From a bacterium (GTDB lineage Bacteria > BMS3Abin14), in assembly GCA_029210965.1 (NCBI GenBank), contig JARGFZ010000014.1, positions 1-64,000 on the forward strand: DNA of 64,000 nt. Direction: 5' to 3'. This document shows, piece by piece, positions 6,209 through 15,973 of the stretch. The position numbers and the translations under genes were made by a program. The notes beneath the pieces were generated by a model. The model worked only from the letters and a program-made list of their open reading frames with translations, was not told the DNA's origin and searched no databases. How positions within the stretch are numbered: position 1 is the stretch's first letter; every line of letters starts with the position of its first letter.

Positions 6209-6462
6209 ATCAATATCTCGAAAGAAAGTCCAGAGTTTACAGTTTGAGATTCGGAGTTCGAGGCACGGCCCATTATAGCACCTGATTAACTTGTCCCCCA
6301 AGAACTCCAGTACCTCCATACAGATAAATTTAAAGCACATCCATGTCAATTGGCCCTTTTTTTATCCGGCATTAACCGTCCCTGATGTTTTATCTCCGCA
6401 AAAAAAATATTTTTATGTTAGGACATATTGTCCGATTGAACACCACTCTGAAAGGAACCGTA

Positions 6463-7053
6463 ATGACAGATACCGCTTTCCTGGACTCCCAGTTATTCTC
6501 CCTGGCGATCCTTCCATTTCTCATCTTTCTCGCCAGGGTATCGGATGTCACCATCGGTACGATGCGGATCATATTCGTGTCCAGGGGATTCAGGTTTGTT
6601 GCCGCTGCCGCCGGTTTTTTCGAGATCCTCATATGGCTTTTCGCCATTGGCCAGATCATGTCCAACCTCGGGAACTGGATCAATTACGGGGCCTACGCCA
6701 GCGGTTATGCCGTGGGTAATTATATCGGGATCACCATCGAAAGGCAGCTCGCGATGGGATATCTCGTTGTCCGGATAATCACCCAAAAGGATGGTACAGC
6801 ATTGGAGGAAAACCTCCGAAAGGCGAACTTTGTCGTCACCTCAGTGGACGCGGAAGGCGGCCGAGGGCCAGTCAAGATCCTTTTCACAATACTTAAGCGC
6901 AAAGCGCTGCCCGCCATGGTGAAGTTGATAAAATCGACCAACCCCCTGGCTTATTACACTGTCGAGGATCTGCGTTCGGTCAGCTCACCAGGGCCGCACC
7001 CGGTTGGCGGAACAAAACTGTTCCACTTTCCAAGCCTGAGGAAGGGGAAGTGA
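6463..7053 (+). CDS. DUF2179/UPF0316-type membrane protein
   Basis: A 196-residue protein with about three hydrophobic helices (LAILPFLIFLARV, RFVAAAAGFFEILIWLFAIG, and a weaker third), then a C-terminal soluble part of about 90 residues ending in the YTVEDLR motif typical of DUF2179. SDVTIGTMRIIFVSRG and FFEILIWL are hallmarks of the UPF0316 group. The ATG at 6463 follows AAAGGAACC and gives a clean N-terminus, so it is preferred over the longer frame from 6385. Function in this family is unknown; DUF2179 is thought to be a small-ligand domain. Confidence 0.8.
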   Translation: MTDTAFLDSQLFSLAILPFLIFLARVSDVTIGTMRIIFVSRGFRFVAAAAGFFEILIWLFAIGQIMSNLGNWINYGAYASGYAVGNYIGITIERQLAMGYLVVRIITQKDGTALEENLRKANFVVTSVDAEGGRGPVKILFTILKRKALPAMVKLIKSTNPLAYYTVEDLRSVSSPGPHPVGGTKLFHFPSLRKGK

Positions 7054-7176
7054 AGGTATGGGGGTATGGGGGTATGAAATTGAGAGTTGAACACAGATGA
7101 ATAGACCAGTTCAGCGTAAAAATGAGCCTCCCCTGCGTCCTGCGTCCTGAATTCTATATTCCGGTTTTTGGAAATT

Positions 7177-8454
7177 CTACCCCATTTCATCAAAGCACTC
7201 CATGCGCAACCTGTGGTCCTCTAGGCTATCCGTCTGGGCGGTGGCCCGTACCCGGCTTAATTCATCGAAATTATCCTTAACAACCTGAAAGATCTCGGAG
7301 TCCAGATACCCCTCCTTTGTCAAGCGGCCGAGTAAGCGAAGAGCCTTCGCCCGGTCAACACCCTTTCGGTAGGGCCTGTCTTCGGTGACCGCTGCGAAGA
7401 CATCGGCCATGGCCAGCACCCGGGAACCGAATGCGATCTCACCTCCCTCGGAGTGCTCCGGGTATCCGCTGCCGTTGAGCCTCTCGTGGTGCTCAGATGC
7501 CCAGCGTATCCCGTAGCCGAGCTCAGGAACTTTTTCCAGAAGGTTCCTTGTGTGTACCACGTGATTCTGAACCCGGTGATATTCTCCCGTGTCCAGACGT
7601 CCCGCCTTTTCCAGGATCTCGGTGGGGATGGCGATCTTACCCAGATCATGCAGATAACCAGCGATTTTCATGGTTTTACAGTTATTTTCGGAAAACCCCA
7701 GATACCTTGCCAGGACCTCAGCGATATAGGCAACCGCTGCAGAGTGTGTCGCCGTGAAATGGCTTCGGTAATCAATGATCCGGGCAAAGGTACGGGCCAC
7801 CGGTTCAAGATCAATGGGTCCCATTTCCAGAAACCTGGGGTCGACCTTCAGACGCAGTTGATCCTCCAGATCCGGCTGCATGGCACCCAACCAGAACTCC
7901 TCTTTATGGGCCGCACCCAGAAGGGCGTCAACGGCCTCTGGCATGAAGACGGTCCCCTTTCTTGCCTTGATCGGACCCAGTACATCCTCGGTCCTGTCAG
8001 GAACATTACCATCCTCCCCCAGAAGGATAGCCACTCTGTCAGCAAGATGGAGCACGTGACTGCTCACGGGAACCCGCTCACCACCGATGTCTTCATCTTG
8101 TTCCGGTTTCCACCAGGTGTGGTGGGCAAGAATGATCTTCGCCTCCTGGCTGAAAAATTCCATGTCCTTGAGCAGACTGTAACCCAGGCAGGCGTGATGG
8201 TGAGGGTTCTTGAACTCGAATTGAAGTGTATCAAGGCGCTCCTGGAGAGAGAAAGCTCCTATGTCGTGGAGAAGGGCGGAAAAAAGGATCTCGTTTATCC
8301 ATTTTCCTCTTAACCCCATCTCCTCAGCCAGGTGGACCGCAAACCAGGCTGTACGCTTGTGGTGATCCACAACCAGGGGACTTACCAGGTCCATTGCCTT
8401 GGACAGGACAGCCACCAGGTTGAAAAGTGTAACAGGAGATATCTGGGAGTCCAT
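7177..8454 (-). CDS. Tandem HD / HD-GYP domain phosphodiesterase
   Basis: The 425-residue protein has two HD domains. The first has HDIG at about 63-66. The second is an HD-GYP with HDLGK at 269-273 and HHERLNGSGYP at 322-332, the signature of cyclic-di-GMP phosphodiesterases. There is no membrane segment or receiver domain, so it appears cytoplasmic and its input is unknown. It is a single gene, with its own spacer on each side. The catalytic motifs of the HD-GYP domain look intact. Confidence 0.88.
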   Translation of the reverse strand: MDSQISPVTLFNLVAVLSKAMDLVSPLVVDHHKRTAWFAVHLAEEMGLRGKWINEILFSALLHDIGAFSLQERLDTLQFEFKNPHHHACLGYSLLKDMEFFSQEAKIILAHHTWWKPEQDEDIGGERVPVSSHVLHLADRVAILLGEDGNVPDRTEDVLGPIKARKGTVFMPEAVDALLGAAHKEEFWLGAMQPDLEDQLRLKVDPRFLEMGPIDLEPVARTFARIIDYRSHFTATHSAAVAYIAEVLARYLGFSENNCKTMKIAGYLHDLGKIAIPTEILEKAGRLDTGEYHRVQNHVVHTRNLLEKVPELGYGIRWASEHHERLNGSGYPEHSEGGEIAFGSRVLAMADVFAAVTEDRPYRKGVDRAKALRLLGRLTKEGYLDSEIFQVVKDNFDELSRVRATAQTDSLEDHRLRMECFDEMG

Positions 8455-8990: not shown

Positions 8991-9977
8991 TCAGTGTCCT
9001 TCTTCCTCCGACTCATCATCGTCCGGCTCACTATCTTCATCCCCGGGTTCATCCTCTTGTTCCGTATCACCGCCACCATCATCGCCATCATCGCTACCAC
9101 CATCATCGCCATCATCGTCACCATCATCTTTCGTTTCATCATCCGCCTGGTCCCAATGACGATCTCCGGCATCGCCCGAACCGATGCCGCTTCCGCGGCG
9201 GTGGAAATTTTCTGCCAGTCTTTGGAGGTAATCCCTGATGTCATTCAGGTCCGCTTTTTTGTTCTTCATGAGGGAGATAGCGTAGTCACCCACCGAGCCT
9301 GAATCTACGCCGTAACCGCTGGCCGCCTTGACCATCTCCATGATGTCCTCGGGTTCTATTTTTCGGTTGATCCTGTCCTTGGCCATGGTCTCATAGACCC
9401 TCTCAATGTCCCTTTTGTTCATCCCGGCAGCGATGGCATCGCTGGTCCTCACGATCAGGGTCCGGGAGGAATCACCTTTCCCCTCGACCTTTTCGGCCTG
9501 GGCAGCGGAATATTCAAGGCGCTCACCGACCTTTTTCAAGGCCGCCAGGATCCGGTCCTCACTGACTTTTTTAGCGAGCCCCTCCATGATCTTCTCGGCG
9601 TAAGGTTGAGTCGGCAGGCCTTTTCCCCGGGCCGCATCCAGGGTATCGATCATTTTCGAAAGAGCATCCGGACTAACGTGGCTGTCAAGGGACTTTTCGA
9701 TCACGGGTGCAAGGCGATCTTCCGGATATCCATTCTCAACAGCCCTGGCAGCACTCTGAAGAACCATGCCCCTTTCCACAGCTACAGGCATGCGGTTCAT
9801 GATCGTCATCTTGAGTTCCTGGGAAATGGCCGCCGACCATCCAGGCACTACTGTCATCGACAACAAGATCAGGACAGCAGGGAGACAAAGAGACATTTTT
9901 ATCCGAATAACGATCCGGGACCGATTCTTCATTCTTCTATCCTCCCGCCTTCCCGGCTTTTCGACCGAATCTGTCAA
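8991..9977 (-). CDS. Secreted protein with Asp/Gly-rich acidic tail, last gene of ECF sigma operon
   Basis: A protein of up to 328 residues. An N-terminal signal peptide (SLCLPAVLILLSMTVVPGWSA, about residues 29-49) is followed by a charged helical domain (about 50-255) and a C-terminal 65-residue tail made almost only of D, G, E and S (DDGDDDGDDGG and similar). The ATG at 9977 overlaps the stop of the upstream lipoprotein gene as ATGA, suggesting coupled translation; internal ATGs at 9932 and 9896 also precede the signal peptide. The tail should be unstructured and could bind divalent cations, which is inference. The domain is not recognised. Confidence 0.75.
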   Translation of the reverse strand: MTDSVEKPGRREDRRMKNRSRIVIRIKMSLCLPAVLILLSMTVVPGWSAAISQELKMTIMNRMPVAVERGMVLQSAARAVENGYPEDRLAPVIEKSLDSHVSPDALSKMIDTLDAARGKGLPTQPYAEKIMEGLAKKVSEDRILAALKKVGERLEYSAAQAEKVEGKGDSSRTLIVRTSDAIAAGMNKRDIERVYETMAKDRINRKIEPEDIMEMVKAASGYGVDSGSVGDYAISLMKNKKADLNDIRDYLQRLAENFHRRGSGIGSGDAGDRHWDQADDETKDDGDDDGDDGGSDDGDDGGGDTEQEDEPGDEDSEPDDDESEEEGH

Positions 9978-10390
9978 AATATCCTCAAAGCTCCTTCCGG
10001 TGTCCTGTGCACGCTCAGAACACCCGTTACGCCTCCAAAATCGTCCTGTTCAACTCTTCCCCGTCCCTTTTCAACCGTTACCGATCCATCCACGACAAAG
10101 AAGTACCTGTAATCTCCCGGCATGAGGTCCAGTTCCGCTGTCCAGGTACCGTCTGGTCTCTGGCTGGCCTGCGCCTCAAAGGTGACTGGTGAGGCAACAA
10201 AAGTCCTCATAAGTACGAGCGTCACCCCATCCGCCTCGGGCGAATGGATGGAAAAACGCACGACTCCCTTATCCTTTAACTCCCTGACCGTACTGTTCGT
10301 CACGTCAGAAGGGGAACGCTCCGCCGGAATGTGGGAGCAGGCGGCGATCGGTCCCAGGACCACAAGCACTGCCAGAAGCCTCAAAACCAT
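9974..10390 (-). CDS. CBM48-like lipoprotein
   Basis: A 138-residue protein whose signal peptide ends in a lipobox (LGPIAACS), so a lipid-anchored periplasmic or outer-membrane location is expected. The body resembles the isoamylase-N/AMPK-type CBM48 beta-sandwich: VRFSIHSPEADGVTLVL then PDGTWTAELDLMPGDYRYFFVVDG. The start at 10390 is one base after the anti-sigma stop (TAA G ATG) with AGGATCGG upstream, and is preferred to the ORF start at 10447. It is translationally linked to both neighbours. The ligand is unknown; most CBM48 domains bind alpha-glucans. Confidence 0.75.
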   Translation of the reverse strand: MVLRLLAVLVVLGPIAACSHIPAERSPSDVTNSTVRELKDKGVVRFSIHSPEADGVTLVLMRTFVASPVTFEAQASQRPDGTWTAELDLMPGDYRYFFVVDGSVTVEKGRGRVEQDDFGGVTGVLSVHRTPEGALRIF

Positions 10391-10391
10391 C

Positions 10392-10985
10392 TTATAGACC
10401 GATCCTGGCCACCGAATTTTTTGAGCCGAAGTCGTCATCGACAACATAATCCGCTAGCGGATCTCCGGGCCGCTCCTTGCCATCGACCATGAGAACATAC
10501 CTGTATTCACCCGGCTCGACGTTAAGTTCCACCAGCCAGTATCCACCTTCTCCTCTTTGTTTTAAAGGGATCTCACCTGTCCAGCCGTTGAAATCACCCA
10601 GCACTGAAACGGAGCCCGCACCCGGGGCATAATAGACGATCCTGAACGCCTCCATTTTGCCCCCCTCTGCAGGTGGGTTGAGCATCTTTAATCCCACTCC
10701 GATCCCGACAAGGAGGCATGCCGCAACCACTGCAGCACCTGCGAAAAACGGCCTGAGTCTTGAACCCACTTTCAAGTAAGACAGCCTGATCCCGCCCGAC
10801 AACCTTACCCGGGGTGCCTTGTAAACATCCAGCGTTTCTGCCGAAGCTGTCAACTCCCTCATTCCCTGCACGTATATCCCCAGGTCGGGATCTGACTTGA
10901 GGCGTTGTTCAAAGGCATCTGCCTCTTTAAGATCAAGCTCCCCATCCAGGTACAAGTTGGCCAGGACAATGTCATTATTTCTCAC
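10392..10985 (-). CDS. Membrane anti-sigma factor with periplasmic CBM48 domain
   Basis: A 197-residue protein with three parts: an N-terminal cytoplasmic helical region (about 1-60, containing LYLDGELDLKEADAFE, the usual start of anti-sigma domains but without the ZAS His/Cys zinc motif), one membrane segment (about 79-99), and a periplasmic AMPK-type CBM48 domain (118-197) with GDFNGW at 130-135 and PGEYRYVLMVDG. Its ATG overlaps the sigma-factor stop (ATGA). The layout suggests that the periplasmic carbohydrate-binding-like domain controls release of the sigma factor. That role is inferred, since it is not typical of described ECF anti-sigma factors. Confidence 0.8.
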   Translation of the reverse strand: MRNNDIVLANLYLDGELDLKEADAFEQRLKSDPDLGIYVQGMRELTASAETLDVYKAPRVRLSGGIRLSYLKVGSRLRPFFAGAAVVAACLLVGIGVGLKMLNPPAEGGKMEAFRIVYYAPGAGSVSVLGDFNGWTGEIPLKQRGEGGYWLVELNVEPGEYRYVLMVDGKERPGDPLADYVVDDDFGSKNSVARIGL

Positions 10986-11485
10986 GACATATCCTCTCTG
11001 AGCAGATTTCGAAGAGCATGCCGGGCCCTGTAAACCCTGACCCTGGCGGCGCTCACAGCTATCCCGAGCACTTCCGAGATCTCGCTGTATGACAGTCCGT
11101 CAACGTGCTTTAGCATGAACGGCACTCTATATCCTTCCTCAAGCAGCATAAGGACCCGGGAAAGCTCCATGGCACTCTCTCTTCCCGTAAAAAGCTCCTC
11201 AGGAGTGGGACTGGATTCAGTGTCCAGATCCCGAACCCCTTCGAACCAGTTCCTTTCCCTTTTCGCGCGGGCCCACTTGTTCTTCATGGTGTTTACAGCG
11301 ATGCGGTAGATCCAGGTTTTAAATGTCGAATCCCCTCTGAACTGGCGCCGGGAACGGTATGCCCTGTACGCCGCATCCTGTAACAGATCCGCGGCAAGGT
11401 CTCGATCGCCCACCGATCTTAACAAAAAAGTAAAGAGCTGATCGGAAACCTGCTCATATTCGGAATGAAATTGCGTTTTATCCAT
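10982..11485 (-). CDS. ECF-type RNA polymerase sigma factor
   Basis: A 167-residue sigma-70 family protein with region 2 (DLAADLLQDAAYRAYR, GDSTFKTWIYRIAVNTMKN) and region 4 (LSYSEISEVLGIAVSAARVRVYRARHAL), and no region 1 or 3. It heads the four-gene coupled operon at 11485-8991 and should transcribe genes released by its cognate anti-sigma factor, probably including this operon. The upstream spacer at 11486-11628 carries a GTGAACA heptamer array and was not resolved into promoter elements. Confidence 0.9.
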   Translation of the reverse strand: MDKTQFHSEYEQVSDQLFTFLLRSVGDRDLAADLLQDAAYRAYRSRRQFRGDSTFKTWIYRIAVNTMKNKWARAKRERNWFEGVRDLDTESSPTPEELFTGRESAMELSRVLMLLEEGYRVPFMLKHVDGLSYSEISEVLGIAVSAARVRVYRARHALRNLLREDMS

Positions 11486-11535
11486 ACTGGACTATTTACC
11501 TAGACAGCGGGGAATGTAAAACGTTACATGGTTTT

Positions 11536-11568
11536 TAAAGTGAACAGTGAACAGTAAACTGTGAACAA
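11536..11568. repeat. GTGAACA heptamer array
   Basis: Units GTGAACA, GTGAACA, GTAAACT, GTGAACA in tandem between the sigma-factor gene and the terminator. No facing partner was seen here. Confidence 0.6.
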
Positions 11569-11628
11569 ATACAATGCCATAAATTAAGATCCAAGATTTA
11601 AAACTTCAGGTAGGTGAGAGTTACTTCA

Positions 11629-11667
11629 AAAAGACCGGCCGCCCCATGCGGGTGCGGCCGGTCTTTT
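11629..11667 (-). terminator. Intrinsic terminator of the Asp/Gly-tail gene
   Basis: A 14-bp perfect stem, AAAAGACCGGCCGC paired with GCGGCCGGTCTTTT around an 11-base loop, flanked by A-runs and T-runs so that it can act on both strands. It lies 40 bp past the stop of the 11707-12150 gene and separates it from the sigma operon. Confidence 0.85.
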
Positions 11668-11706
11668 ATCCAGAACATGAGTGTTTACAAATTGGGATAA
11701 AAAGGA

Positions 11707-12150
11707 TTAATCGTCGTCGTCATCCCCGTCATCACTGTCACCATCATCGCCATCATCCTCGCCGTCACCATCATCATCGCCGTCGTCATCGTCGTCCATG
11801 TCGCCGTCGTCATCGTCATCCACATCATCACCCGAATCATTCCCCGAGATATGATCGTCAACGATGGTATTCAGATCCTCTCCGGTGCCGTCCTCGTAGG
11901 CCTCCTTGAGGTCTTCGAGCATCTCCTCAACGTCTCCCTCATCCAATCCGGCTGCGCGGGCTTTCCCAACAGCCGCATCGACAAACTCAGTTGAGATCCC
12001 CGCCTCCACTGCTTCAGTGGCAGCCTCCGCGACGCCATCACCGCTGATGCTGTCTGCCATGGCAGGAGCCATGGCAAAAACCAGTGCGATGAGAACCGCC
12101 ATACCAGAGAACATAAGCATCTTCTTGACTGATAATCTCGCCTTTTCCAT
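11707..12150 (-). CDS. Small secreted protein with poly-Asp/Gly tail
   Basis: About 147 residues: signal peptide (KKMLMFSGMAVLIALVFAMAPAMA), a short helical domain (about 35-95) and a 45-residue C-terminal tail almost entirely of D with G, S, E and M. The ATG at 12150 is used because GGAGG lies 8 bp upstream; the upstream ATG at 12165 overlaps that site. It shares its tail type with the 8991-9977 protein of the ECF operon, so the two may belong to one envelope response. Ca2+ binding or surface exposure is possible but unproven. Function unknown. Confidence 0.7.
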   Translation of the reverse strand: MEKARLSVKKMLMFSGMAVLIALVFAMAPAMADSISGDGVAEAATEAVEAGISTEFVDAAVGKARAAGLDEGDVEEMLEDLKEAYEDGTGEDLNTIVDDHISGNDSGDDVDDDDDGDMDDDDDGDDDGDGEDDGDDGDSDDGDDDDD

Positions 12151-12474
12151 CTTAAATACCTCCATTCGTTCATATCCGGATTTTCACGGCCTGACAGTCT
12201 CGGGCTGCACGTCAACCCTGCAGGGCCATGAATTGCAACGGTTTAACAGTTCAGACATTCAAGCTGCGTTTTCGTTACAGGAAAAGATGGATATGTCTGG
12301 CGGAAGGTTAAATCTGCTGGCGACGGATCGCCAGCGTCAGACGAAGGGAGCTCATTTATTTTTCCATGGGGAACGATTTGATTTTAAGGTTCACTGCTTA
12401 GCGCCTGCCCTGAGGTCGCCCCCGGTGAGTCCCGCCGCTGGCGGGATCGAAGCGTTCCCAGTTTGCCACGGCCT
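12151..12474. other. Spacer with local hairpins, no gene
   Basis: It holds two short hairpins, one of CTGGCGA/TCGCCAG type near 12320 and TCCCGCCGCTGGCGGGA near 12430. It should contain the promoter of the Asp/Gly-tail gene at its left side. No coding frame is supported. Confidence 0.4.
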
Positions 12475-13458
12475 TCACTTGATCCCCATTAACCCCATCA
12501 GATATCTACTGACAAGATACAGGGCAGCGATCATCAGGAGTGGAAAAACAGCGATGTTGAATATGTAGGCGGCCGTCTGGCGCAGAACAGCTGAGGCCAG
12601 CGCCTTTGAACGCTTTTGAATGTATTTCTTAAATTCCCTGATTTTCTCTCCGGAAACAAGCGCGGTTAAGATATTCCCACCGCTCCCTTCCGGTCTCTCT
12701 GTAAGTGCCAGGGCAGGATCAGTACCGTCATAGGGAACCGGCACAGTAACCGTTGACGTCTGTATACCCGATGAAACCGCCTCCGTCTCTTCCTGGCCAT
12801 CACCCTCGAGCAGTGAGGGCATGGTCTGACCCATATCCTCATATAGGCTGTTTGCCTCACTTATCGGTTCGCCTGTTATGTGATCCGATACCCATCCGGC
12901 ACCCACGACGCTCAGCGGCAGACCGATGTAAAGCAGTAGTGCCAGAACCGATGCGACCACACTGCTCCTGGCAAAAGCGGATCTAAAAGGCGAATTATCC
13001 GGAGCTACATCCCTAATAAGAAGCCAGGCCAGTGCGCAGACAAGTGCAGCCCACAGGAACCAGATGTTAACGACTGCGGCAAGGTCCAGTAAATATTCGG
13101 CGATGTAATAGTAGGCTACGGCCGCAAGGAGGACCTTCCAACCGAAATCGACGTAGTCGTAAACCGCTACGGCAAGGTCCCCGACCTTGACGTTGAGTAT
13201 GAAACCCACCTCGGAACTTTTCAGGACAGCGAGCCCTACCTTGAGAGCCGAAAGAAGCAGGAACCCCTTAAGGGCCTGCTCGCGCTGCTGTTCGAGGTGC
13301 ATTTCCGCTGCCTCGCTGACCTTCCCCAATCCGGAGTTGGAAAAAATCACCTCCAGGGCCGGACCGTTGGCAGTAGGGATGAAGGACAGAACCAGGAGAA
13401 CCGCCACAAGGGCGGCCAGGAAGCGAGGGGAGGAAAGAAGAGAGAGGATCGTTTTCAT
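12475..13458 (-). CDS. Uncharacterised integral membrane protein
   Basis: 327 residues with an N-terminal hydrophobic helix (FLAALVAVLLVLSFIP), a cluster of about four to five helices between 95 and 205 (KVLLAAVAYYYIAEYLL, IWFLWAALVCALAWLLI, SSVVASVLALLLYIGLPLSVVG), a hydrophilic loop of about 80 residues and a C-terminal helix (FNIAVFPLLMIAALYLVSRYLMG). No family is recognised. The same-strand membrane protein at 13633-15150 lies upstream with a 175-bp spacer, so they may be cotranscribed. Confidence 0.7.
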   Translation of the reverse strand: MKTILSLLSSPRFLAALVAVLLVLSFIPTANGPALEVIFSNSGLGKVSEAAEMHLEQQREQALKGFLLLSALKVGLAVLKSSEVGFILNVKVGDLAVAVYDYVDFGWKVLLAAVAYYYIAEYLLDLAAVVNIWFLWAALVCALAWLLIRDVAPDNSPFRSAFARSSVVASVLALLLYIGLPLSVVGAGWVSDHITGEPISEANSLYEDMGQTMPSLLEGDGQEETEAVSSGIQTSTVTVPVPYDGTDPALALTERPEGSGGNILTALVSGEKIREFKKYIQKRSKALASAVLRQTAAYIFNIAVFPLLMIAALYLVSRYLMGLMGIK

Positions 13459-13632: not shown

Positions 13633-15150
13633 CTAGACACTTTTTTTATCTTTTTTCTCTCCTCTGATCAAAATCCGAACCTCGTCATCCTCCCACCGAA
13701 TGGAATCGATCTCGAAGGTTTTGAAATTGTACTCCGGGAACATCTTGTACAGGGTCAGGCGATCGATGCGGGAAAGATCCCCCTCCGGGAAGTATTCTCC
13801 CATGGGCTGGATTGTCCTTCGATCATAGATCATGTAGCGGGAACCGGGAGAGTTGGCAGCCGGCTCGGCCTTTACATCCTGTGACTCAGGGGCCGGCTCC
13901 GCCACGGGAGGTACTGCCTCGGATCCCGGCACGGCTTCAATCTCCGGTTGGCTTTCCTCTCCTGAAAGGATCTTCGTTTCATCTATATCGTCCTTAACAT
14001 CAACTTCCAGTTCCACTGGCACAACCTCATCAACCTTGATATGAACCTCGACCTCATCAAAGTTGGACCAATCCAGTTTGACGATCCTCAGTTCACCAGG
14101 TGCCAGTTTTGGAGAGAGAAGCGCAGACAGGGAAACCGGATCCAGGGTAGAAAACCCTTCATCACCAAAGTAGGTCTCGTAATGCTCCCCCGTTGCTGCA
14201 TCAAGAACCTTGTAGCGGGTCCTCATTCCAGAACCCGGTATACTTCCAGTGGTTACAGGCCTTTTCCCGAGGGGCACCCCACCGACTGCTCTGGCGACAT
14301 CCGTACCTTCTGGTTTAGTCTCTGGTATATCAATGGCCGTATCAACAGCCGTCTCAAATGCCATGTATCGGGCTGTCTCCTCGACCCAGTCCTCAGGTAT
14401 GACAAGTTCATCCCCAGGATAGGGTTCTGATGAAGCATCTAATATTTCGGGGGACAGGACCTCATCCATCTGTGATGTCACGATCTCCTCGTCAAGAGCC
14501 ACAAAGGCTGGCCCATGAACACTTTCCTCTACCCCCAGGGACAACCCCAGTTTGCTCTCGGAAAGTTCATCAAACTCGTAAACCGTCTCTTTAACATTGG
14601 GAGGCGGTTCAGCTCCCTTCTGGACAGACTGTCCCACTTCAAATATCTCTTCGTCTGACTCTTCAAACAGGGGTGATTCTTGCGTGTCGATGGGATCAGT
14701 AGCCTGGACTGCCCCATATTTAATCAGTTCAGCCGTCTGGTCATCCTCAATCTTTCCCATGACAAGGGGTTCAAATCCACCAGAAGGAATCGGATCCACT
14801 CTCGAAGCCGCAACAAAGGAAGCCAAAATAAAAATCAGTGCGGTGCCTCCGCCGGCGGCGCCCGCTATCCTTAATTCCAGTATGGGAGGAAAGAAAACAA
14901 ATAAAGCTCCAATACAGACGGTCACAGCAATGAGAGCTGATAAAGCTGCCGCGCCAAGCCGGGTCAGAACCTTGCTGCCCCCAAGGAGCAAAACCGCGAG
15001 CTGAAGCCCGAGAACAGCAAAAAGCCACAGGGCCTGGATATCAACTTTCCACAAAACCTTGAAGGTGAAATAGGTGGTGAGTGTAAAAACAAGAGAGGCG
15101 AACAGAATGAGAGAACTGACTGGTATCCGATCTGATGATCCTTGATTCAT
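13633..15150 (-). CDS. Membrane protein with two copies of an unrecognised C-terminal domain
   Basis: 505 residues. Four membrane helices occupy about residues 12-112, followed by a long acidic low-complexity region (about 115-310). Two related domains follow, at about 312-373 (RYKVLDAATGEHYETYF ... WSNFDEVEVHI) and 438-497 (RYMIYDRRTIQPMGEYF ... WEDDEVRILI), joined by a Pro/Glu/Ala-rich linker. The duplicated unit is about 60 residues and has no match I recognise. The acidic central part and the topology suggest that the bulk faces the cytoplasm or periplasm as a flexible arm; the side is not decidable here. Confidence 0.7.
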   Translation of the reverse strand: MNQGSSDRIPVSSLILFASLVFTLTTYFTFKVLWKVDIQALWLFAVLGLQLAVLLLGGSKVLTRLGAAALSALIAVTVCIGALFVFFPPILELRIAGAAGGGTALIFILASFVAASRVDPIPSGGFEPLVMGKIEDDQTAELIKYGAVQATDPIDTQESPLFEESDEEIFEVGQSVQKGAEPPPNVKETVYEFDELSESKLGLSLGVEESVHGPAFVALDEEIVTSQMDEVLSPEILDASSEPYPGDELVIPEDWVEETARYMAFETAVDTAIDIPETKPEGTDVARAVGGVPLGKRPVTTGSIPGSGMRTRYKVLDAATGEHYETYFGDEGFSTLDPVSLSALLSPKLAPGELRIVKLDWSNFDEVEVHIKVDEVVPVELEVDVKDDIDETKILSGEESQPEIEAVPGSEAVPPVAEPAPESQDVKAEPAANSPGSRYMIYDRRTIQPMGEYFPEGDLSRIDRLTLYKMFPEYNFKTFEIDSIRWEDDEVRILIRGEKKDKKSV

Positions 15151-15325: not shown

Positions 15326-15544
15326 ATGCCCAACATCCTCGTCAGAGACCTTTCCCCCGAAACGATCAAGATGTTAAAAGCCAGGGCACACAGAAGCGGC
15401 CGTTCCATGCAATCCGAACTGAAAAACATCCTGGAAGGGGCTGCCAGGATGGAATCTCTCGATGCCGCGCTATTATCGGCCAGGATACGCCGTATGCTGG
15501 GAGATAGAGAACACACAGACAGCGCTGACCTGATGGGAACCTAG
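15326..15544 (+). CDS. Ribbon-helix-helix antitoxin, FitA/VapB type
   Basis: 72 residues. The N-terminal MPNILVRDLSPETIKMLKAR followed by AHRSGRSMQSELKNIL matches the FitA-like ribbon-helix-helix fold used by VapB antitoxins to bind DNA. The gene is preceded by AGGAGGAACG and ends 6 bp before the PIN gene, the usual antitoxin-toxin order. It would be expected to repress its own promoter (a -10-like TATCGTATTG/ATAGCAAAT stretch lies at about 15290-15308). Confidence 0.85.
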   Translation: MPNILVRDLSPETIKMLKARAHRSGRSMQSELKNILEGAARMESLDAALLSARIRRMLGDREHTDSADLMGT

Positions 15545-15550
15545 ATCCCG

Positions 15551-15973
15551 ATGGCCCGATTTGTAGTAGAACCTGGTATCGCTGTAAAGTGGTTCCTTCC
15601 GGAGGAATATTCAAACCCTGCCGCCCGCCTTCTGGATGGCGGCAACGAACTGATGGCGCCGGATACCCTTTGGTTCAACGCCGGAAGGCTCATTACCGCC
15701 AAGGTACGCCTGGGTGAACTGTCACCCGATGAGGGAGCCCAGATCATCCAGGCTGTTCAGTCTGTTCCTGTGAAACTCCAGCCTTCACAACCGCTGTTGG
15801 AACCGGCCCTGCGTATCGCCGCATTCCTTGACCTACCCCTTGGGGATGGCCTCGGGCTTGCCGTCGCGGTCCATGGTGATTGCCGGCTTGTCACAGCCAG
15901 CAGAACCCTTTATGAAAAAGTGCAGAAAACTCCCTTTTCTGTTCATGTAAAGTGGGTGGGGGACATCCGGTGA
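15551..15973 (+). CDS. PIN-domain VapC-like toxin with degraded active site
   Basis: A 140-residue PIN-fold protein (FVVEPGIAVKWFLPEE, APDTLW, GDGLGLAVAVH, LVTASRTLYEKV). Comparing motifs with the VapC consensus, the first Asp (VVDAS) is Glu7, the conserved Glu of the E-x-x-N helix is Asn43, and the last Asp (LVTAD) is Ser117; only the central acid, Asp99, remains. The metal-dependent RNase site therefore looks compromised, although the fold and length are intact. It is paired with the antitoxin upstream. It may be a decayed toxin or one retained for DNA or antitoxin binding. Confidence 0.8.
   Translation: MARFVVEPGIAVKWFLPEEYSNPAARLLDGGNELMAPDTLWFNAGRLITAKVRLGELSPDEGAQIIQAVQSVPVKLQPSQPLLEPALRIAAFLDLPLGDGLGLAVAVHGDCRLVTASRTLYEKVQKTPFSVHVKWVGDIR

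Follow-up and report, generated by a model that had tools for sequence, protein, structure and literature searches.

A candidate envelope-signalling module of an ECF sigma factor, a CBM48-bearing anti-sigma factor and a secreted solenoid protein in several bacterial phyla

Analysis of a 64,000-nucleotide stretch from a bacterium of the lineage BMS3Abin14 (assembly GCA_029210965.1, contig JARGFZ010000014.1, positions 1 to 64,000; hereafter the window) identified an operon on the minus strand (11485-8991) which encodes, in order of transcription, an extracytoplasmic function (ECF) sigma factor, its CBM48-bearing anti-sigma factor, a lipoprotein with a CBM48-like domain and a secreted solenoid protein with an acidic tail. 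A second secreted protein with an acidic tail is encoded on the same strand just upstream of the sigma operon. The order of sigma factor, anti-sigma factor with CBM48, (lipoprotein) and solenoid recurred across at least six groups at the phylum level. The computed results support the parts of the system, their conserved order, their co-inheritance, a shared promoter and a narrow set of promoter matches. With moderate confidence, the locus is read as a self-contained envelope-signalling module, in which envelope proteins encoded by the operon would gate the anti-sigma factor in the manner of RseB and MucB. The module unites a sigma factor, a CBM48 anti-sigma factor and a protein family that is unnamed in Pfam and NCBIfam.

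Constituents of the operon

The sigma factor of the window was found to possess only regions 2 and 4 of sigma70 over its 167 residues (Pfam Sigma70_r2, 1.5e-13; Sigma70_r4_2, 5.7e-14), which fits an ECF (group IV) sigma factor, and it scored 80.9 bits against TIGR02937 (cut-off 42.9). The sigma gene of genome G001 (L029:7415-7684) has an apparent in-frame internal deletion of approximately 76 residues, with its promoter, anti-sigma, lipoprotein and solenoid genes intact; this appears to be a loss of function or an assembly error.

The anti-sigma gene lies directly 3' of the sigma gene and its product has one membrane helix, the layout of a class I membrane anti-sigma factor. In the AlphaFold model of this protein, an N-terminal three-helix domain is followed by a membrane helix (residues 82-102) and a beta sandwich (residues 112-195), the latter with a predicted local distance difference test score (pLDDT) of about 95. 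Both CBM_48 (4.5e-9) and AMPK1_CBM (2e-8) exceeded their Pfam cut-offs, and comparison of the sandwich to the PDB using Foldseek gave the carbohydrate-binding modules of AMPK-beta as the best matches (4yee, probability 1.00, template modelling score 0.83 by target length), the best of these structures having been solved with cyclodextrin. An unrelated fold, which would have spoken against the first-pass annotation of this locus, was thus not what was found. The zf-HC2 domain scored 15.2 of the 22.2 bits needed in the window anti-sigma factor, whose zinc ligands are gone; it was above the cut-off in the paralogue L034 and in the distant members L067 and L134.

The lipoprotein fell just short of the Pfam cut-off for CBM48 (25.5 bits, cut-off 26.8), and profile-profile comparison with the anti-sigma family (hhalign) gave a probability of 99.1 and an E-value of 9.4e-19. 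Its CBM48 status is based on profile comparison only, while that of the anti-sigma factor is also based on the Pfam cut-off and the fold. The lipoprotein was found in some lineages only. Together, these Pfam, AlphaFold, Foldseek and profile results bear out the description in the first-pass annotation of a sigma/anti-sigma system with a periplasmic CBM48 domain and a matching lipoprotein.

The core of the solenoid protein was modelled as all-helical, with approximately 190 residues at a pLDDT above 90. No family was identified for it in Pfam or NCBIfam, and its fold had no significant match in the PDB (best E-value 8e-3, template modelling score 0.25, a designed nanocage); profile matches to PDB entries were dismissed as helical-repeat look-alikes. 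Over 84 relatives, the motif K114-x-x-E117-G118-x-x-K121 was found to be conserved (K121 99%, G118 99%, E117 96%, K114 90%), and is used here to denote the family (KxxEGxxK). A disordered, low-complexity tail is common in this family, with a composition that varies. Averaged over the last 45 residues, the tails of the window family contain 36% Asp/Glu, those of the G121 lineage 49% Gly, those of the G152 lineage 29% Ser/Thr and 15% Pro, and those of the G072 lineage 15% Pro (lineages being named here after a member genome). Translation of the open reading frames showed the Asp/Gly tails previously described on both secreted proteins of the window, but acidic tails belong to the window family only and cannot serve as a trait of the system, as had been proposed.

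The small acidic protein was identified as a short relative of the N-terminal region of the solenoid, from homology to the G006 copy and from comparison of the small copy of G001 with the G001 solenoid. It forms a separate transcript, with its own promoter and a strong hairpin before the promoter of the sigma operon. In three G121-lineage cassettes (L124, L128 and L190), the small secreted protein encoded before the sigma gene carries a common C-terminal motif like DGTGxGYGDGTxxxPxDGTGFG.

Conservation of gene order and shared promoters

The small phylum of the window was represented by 12 genomes of one family, and the cassette was found in six of these besides the genome of the window. A search of genome contigs from a single protein returned one true relative, the other matches being different CBM48 proteins, branching enzymes among them. 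With a profile of the anti-sigma family, full-length matches were obtained in other phyla. The order of sigma factor, anti-sigma factor with CBM48 and solenoid, with or without the lipoprotein, was read in genomes G025 (twice), G121, G097, G072 (three times), G078 and G152. By phylum, the solenoid profile was positive in 95 of 150 genomes for the phylum that contains G072, 23 of 51 for that with G121, 30 of 50 for that with G152 and 4 of 4 for that with G097. This family is therefore present in roughly half or more of the sampled genomes of three large lineages. No cassette was found on plasmids when plasmid carriage was looked for.

Sixty loci were chosen by a match to the solenoid alone (L124-L143, L160-L199). 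In 58 of them a CBM48 protein was encoded no more than 3.5 kb away on the same strand, and in 54 an ECF sigma factor as well; several of the incomplete loci end at contig ends or at the edges of the fetched stretch. The solenoid was also rare off the module, as nearly all strong matches in 193 genomes were at a CBM48 anti-sigma factor. Across 65 cassettes, distance matrices of sigma factor, anti-sigma factor and solenoid correlated with r of 0.81-0.85, a level that none of 999 permutations reached. A survey of such neighbourhoods had been suggested in the first-pass annotation, and the order proved to be kept in relatives far beyond chance. Solenoid genes with neither a sigma nor an anti-sigma gene nearby were found in G004 (L122:5453-6169) and in G356 (L131:2038-3004, split in two frames), and are possible remnants.

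Paralogous pairs of a CBM48 anti-sigma factor and a tail-less solenoid, with no adjacent sigma gene, were identified at L034:6460-7772 (on contig C40 of the window's own genome), L035:5152-6395 and L036:6217-7412. These pairs adjoin large multiheme cytochromes (Cytochrome_C7, MtrC/MtrF-like), and two of the three carry a different promoter-like site, TGTAACT..CCGTA.

Comparison of promoters, likewise suggested earlier, revealed a common ECF-type motif, KGTAAC-N16-TGTCYA, before both the sigma operon and the gene of the small acidic protein in the window family. Nine regions upstream of these two genes in five genomes possess a -35 element GTAA and a -10 element TGTC at a spacing of always 16 nucleotides, and GTAA and TGTC are invariant in an alignment of 11 promoter sites. 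An exact search of 12 genomes gave 12 matches, nine of them at cassettes, including two outside the defining set (before the small protein of G008, and before the sigma gene of G009, which is split over two contigs). The sole strong match off the cassettes, TGTAACGCTTCCATCCCGACATTGTCTA, is a cognate-looking promoter 82 nucleotides before a PilZ-domain gene of G006 (L156:2446-2878), the product of which is a possible additional member of the regulon.

For the G121 lineage, TGTAAC-N15-17-[CA]GTT[AT] was found within 1 kb upstream of the sigma gene in 14 of 16 cassettes, against an expectation of 0.10, and seven of these loci had played no part in spotting the pattern. The promoter of this lineage usually precedes a small secreted Gly/Ser-rich protein upstream of the sigma gene, and in other cases the sigma gene itself. 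Exact matches to TGTAACC-N15-CGTTA in 51 genomes fell at cassettes in 14 of 17 cases, with 8 matches for a control pattern. No excess of GTAAC over shuffled sequence was found in the 200 nucleotides before the sigma genes of the G072 and G152 lineages, and the promoter claim is therefore confined to the window family and the G121 lineage. As most promoter matches sit at cassettes, the sigma factor appears to be local, serving mainly its own module and the small low-complexity secreted protein. This defined promoter and minimal regulon mean that a reporter assay could expose the signal.

Ligand residues and candidate modes of action

In the scheme favoured here, the cytoplasmic helical domain of the anti-sigma factor would keep the ECF sigma factor at the membrane, with the periplasmic CBM48 domain acting as a docking or sensing head together with the CBM48-like lipoprotein (in some lineages) and the KxxEGxxK solenoid (nearly always). 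While the head is occupied, or the monitored envelope structure is complete, the anti-sigma factor would be stable. A changed state would lead to its inactivation, probably by regulated intramembrane proteolysis, and the freed sigma factor would then drive transcription of its own operon and of the neighbouring gene for the small secreted low-complexity protein, in both cases from KGTAAC-N16-TGTCYA promoters. What we infer in this scheme is that the envelope proteins physically interact, that proteolysis takes place, in which direction control runs, what the signal is and what the small secreted proteins do. Genes of the M50 site-2-protease type were identified in the genome of the window.

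Several points weigh against this scheme. M50 proteases were found in every control genome, so that their presence is unspecific. The correlation of distances is in part shared species history, and some CBM48 anti-sigma factors had no detectable solenoid (L069, L077, L078). The promoter patterns were derived partly from loci later counted, and the regulon is drawn from two lineages. The control with the reversed pattern likewise returned 12 matches from the 12 genomes searched, so the promoter signal lies in the location of the matches and in the sites outside the defining set, and not in their total. Co-inheritance and operon order would also fit proteins that are outputs of the sigma factor and have no sensory function.

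The latter is the main rival explanation, under which the solenoid, the lipoprotein and the small proteins would be outputs only, for example parts of a secreted surface layer, and the CBM48 domain of the anti-sigma factor alone would perceive the signal. The small acidic protein, previously noted as an output, is transcribed apart from the operon from the same ECF-type promoter class; some cassettes of the G121 lineage, such as that of G348, have a second promoter match immediately ahead of the solenoid gene; the G072 lineage has an additional larger protein with a C-terminal CBM48 domain and barrel-like sequence; and the disordered tails fit extracellular material. Against this, the solenoid stays beside the anti-sigma factor in six phylum-level groups, including the paralogous cassettes without a sigma gene (L034-L036), which better suits a partner of the anti-sigma factor. 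The outputs-only account is thus considered possible, but rather improbable. The earlier suggestion that the last gene of the operon encodes an output was revised in one respect, as a solenoid which follows the anti-sigma factor across phyla belongs to the module and is not a casual output.

Alternatively, the anti-sigma CBM48 domain may bind an alpha-glucan or another envelope polysaccharide and so free the sigma factor, with the lipoprotein binding the same glycan. The confirmed CBM48 fold and the nearest solved structures described above are in its favour, and there is precedent in RsgI anti-sigma factors with CBM3 or CBM42 modules (PMC12203970). The residues of AMPK-beta that we take to be ligand contacts are W100, K126 and W133. 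Across 72 aligned anti-sigma CBM48 domains, the equivalent of W100 was present in 72 and that of W133 in 43, both of which count in favour of this alternative, but that of K126 in none. The W133 equivalent was found in 13 of 13 domains of the G152 lineage and 24 of 29 of the G072 lineage, but in none of 16 in the G121 lineage; among the seven cassettes of the window family this position is Arg in five, Tyr in one and Trp only in G005. The window anti-sigma factor retains only the W100 equivalent and so lacks what AMPK-type glycogen binding calls for, and W100 is a hallmark of the fold that is retained in CBM48 domains generally, which counts against reading it as evidence of binding. Both tryptophans are lost from the lipoproteins (0 of 19), and the lineages with a lipoprotein are mostly those without W133 in the anti-sigma factor. 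No carbohydrate-active enzyme was recognised beside those cassettes that were inspected. These losses argue against ordinary alpha-glucan binding in the window lineage, with another ligand remaining compatible, and sequence comparison appears to support glucan sensing only weakly. The sensing of an envelope glycan that had been proposed in the first-pass annotation is accordingly left unsupported, and a glucan sensor of the RsgI type is judged unlikely. The module could be used to test whether CBM48 domains sense things other than alpha-glucans in the bacterial envelope.

A response to calcium or other metals, in which acidic tails bind cations and the sigma factor answers cation stress, would suit the acidic tails of the window family, but those of other lineages with the module contain 4-16% Asp/Glu; as tail composition depends on lineage, acidity is not part of a shared mechanism, and this explanation was rejected as a general one and is considered highly improbable.

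Locus features and comparison with known systems

The features of the locus are given in Table 1. The sigma and anti-sigma genes overlap (GTGA), and a single nucleotide separates the anti-sigma gene from that of the lipoprotein. The likeliest start of the solenoid gene is the ATG at 9932, which stands behind GGAGG and approximately 41 nucleotides past the lipoprotein stop codon, with the TTG at 9977 less likely. The translational coupling once proposed for the whole series holds for the first three genes and probably not for the last.

Table 1. Features identified at the sigma factor locus of the window
Feature	Coordinates	Strand	Basis
ECF sigma factor, 167 amino acids	10982..11485	-	Pfam Sigma70_r2 and Sigma70_r4_2; TIGR02937
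Membrane anti-sigma factor with periplasmic CBM48	10392..10985	-	Pfam CBM_48/AMPK1_CBM, AlphaFold, Foldseek
Lipoprotein (lipobox ..PIAAC) with degenerate CBM48-like domain	9974..10390	-	Sub-threshold Pfam matches; hhalign
Secreted alpha-solenoid protein with disordered Asp/Gly-rich tail	8991..9932; open frame to 9977	-	AlphaFold; family conservation
Small secreted protein with Asp/Gly-rich tail, monocistronic	11707..12150	-	Open reading frame; homology to G006 copy
ECF-type promoter of sigma operon, TGTAACGTTTTACATTCCCCGCTGTCTA	11501..11528	-	Shared promoter pattern
ECF-type promoter of small acidic protein, TGTAACGAAAACGCAGCTTGAATGTCTG	12252..12279	-	Shared promoter pattern
Intrinsic terminator after small acidic protein gene	11629..11667	-	Fold -32.9 kcal/mol, z -6.58; sequence

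Two proteins without a Pfam or NCBIfam match are encoded at 12475-13458 and 13633-15150; both adjoin the cassette in G008, and the former is also next to the G006 cassette (L028, L031). At 6385-8454 lie genes for a DUF5698/DUF2179 protein and for a protein with an HD domain (HD_5, 5e-46). Both also flank the G008 cassette, in which the HD gene appears as two frames. At 15326-15973, a FitA-like ribbon-helix-helix antitoxin gene (Pfam 1e-12) is followed by a PIN-toxin-like gene of 140 amino acids without a Pfam match.

The literature searched contained no account of an ECF system whose anti-sigma factor carries CBM48, in agreement with the earlier remark that no ECF group with this output was known, although an existing ECF group number is possible, the main classification paper having been outside the search. 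Carbohydrate-binding modules on anti-sigma factors (RsgI) and operon-encoded partners of anti-sigma factors (RseB, MucB) are already known. Tentatively, the locus may represent an undescribed multi-phylum system in which CBM48 serves as a protein-docking head and, with the solenoid and the CBM48 lipoprotein, reports the assembly of secreted low-complexity surface material made by the sigma factor.

The SigI-RsgI systems for biomass sensing of Clostridium thermocellum resemble the module in that the anti-sigma factor carries an extracytoplasmic module of the carbohydrate-binding type (CBM3/CBM42) (PMC12203970). They differ in that the N-terminal domain and the autocleaving periplasmic domain of RsgI had no Pfam or NCBIfam match in the window proteins, and glycan-degrading targets were not found here. 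SigI, unlike the sigma factor of the window, is not a two-domain ECF sigma factor. With class I (ZAS-type) anti-sigma factors, whose N-terminal domain often carries HxxxCxxC, the module shares the membrane helix, a predicted N-terminal helical domain and, in the three members named above, zf-HC2; the loss of zinc ligands in the window member and the CBM48 sensory head, which is not described in the literature searched, set it apart. There was also no match to FecR in the anti-sigma factor (Pfam, NCBIfam), and no TonB-dependent receptor among the scanned neighbours. The periplasmic head is like AMPK-beta and other CBM48 glycogen-recognition domains in fold and sequence; unlike these, it lies outside the cytoplasm as part of an anti-sigma factor, the K126 equivalent is missing everywhere and that of W133 is mostly missing in the window lineage.

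RseB and MucB are periplasmic partners of the anti-sigma factors RseA and MucA, and MucB shields MucA from cleavage (PMC7400510). The RseA-RseB and MucA-MucB systems (sigma-E, AlgU) have in common with the module an operon in which an ECF sigma factor is encoded together with a membrane anti-sigma factor and one or more envelope partners. No match to the RseA, RseB or MucB families was found in any part here, including the lipoprotein and solenoid (Pfam); the head is instead a CBM48 domain, and its putative partners are a CBM48 lipoprotein and the unnamed solenoid.

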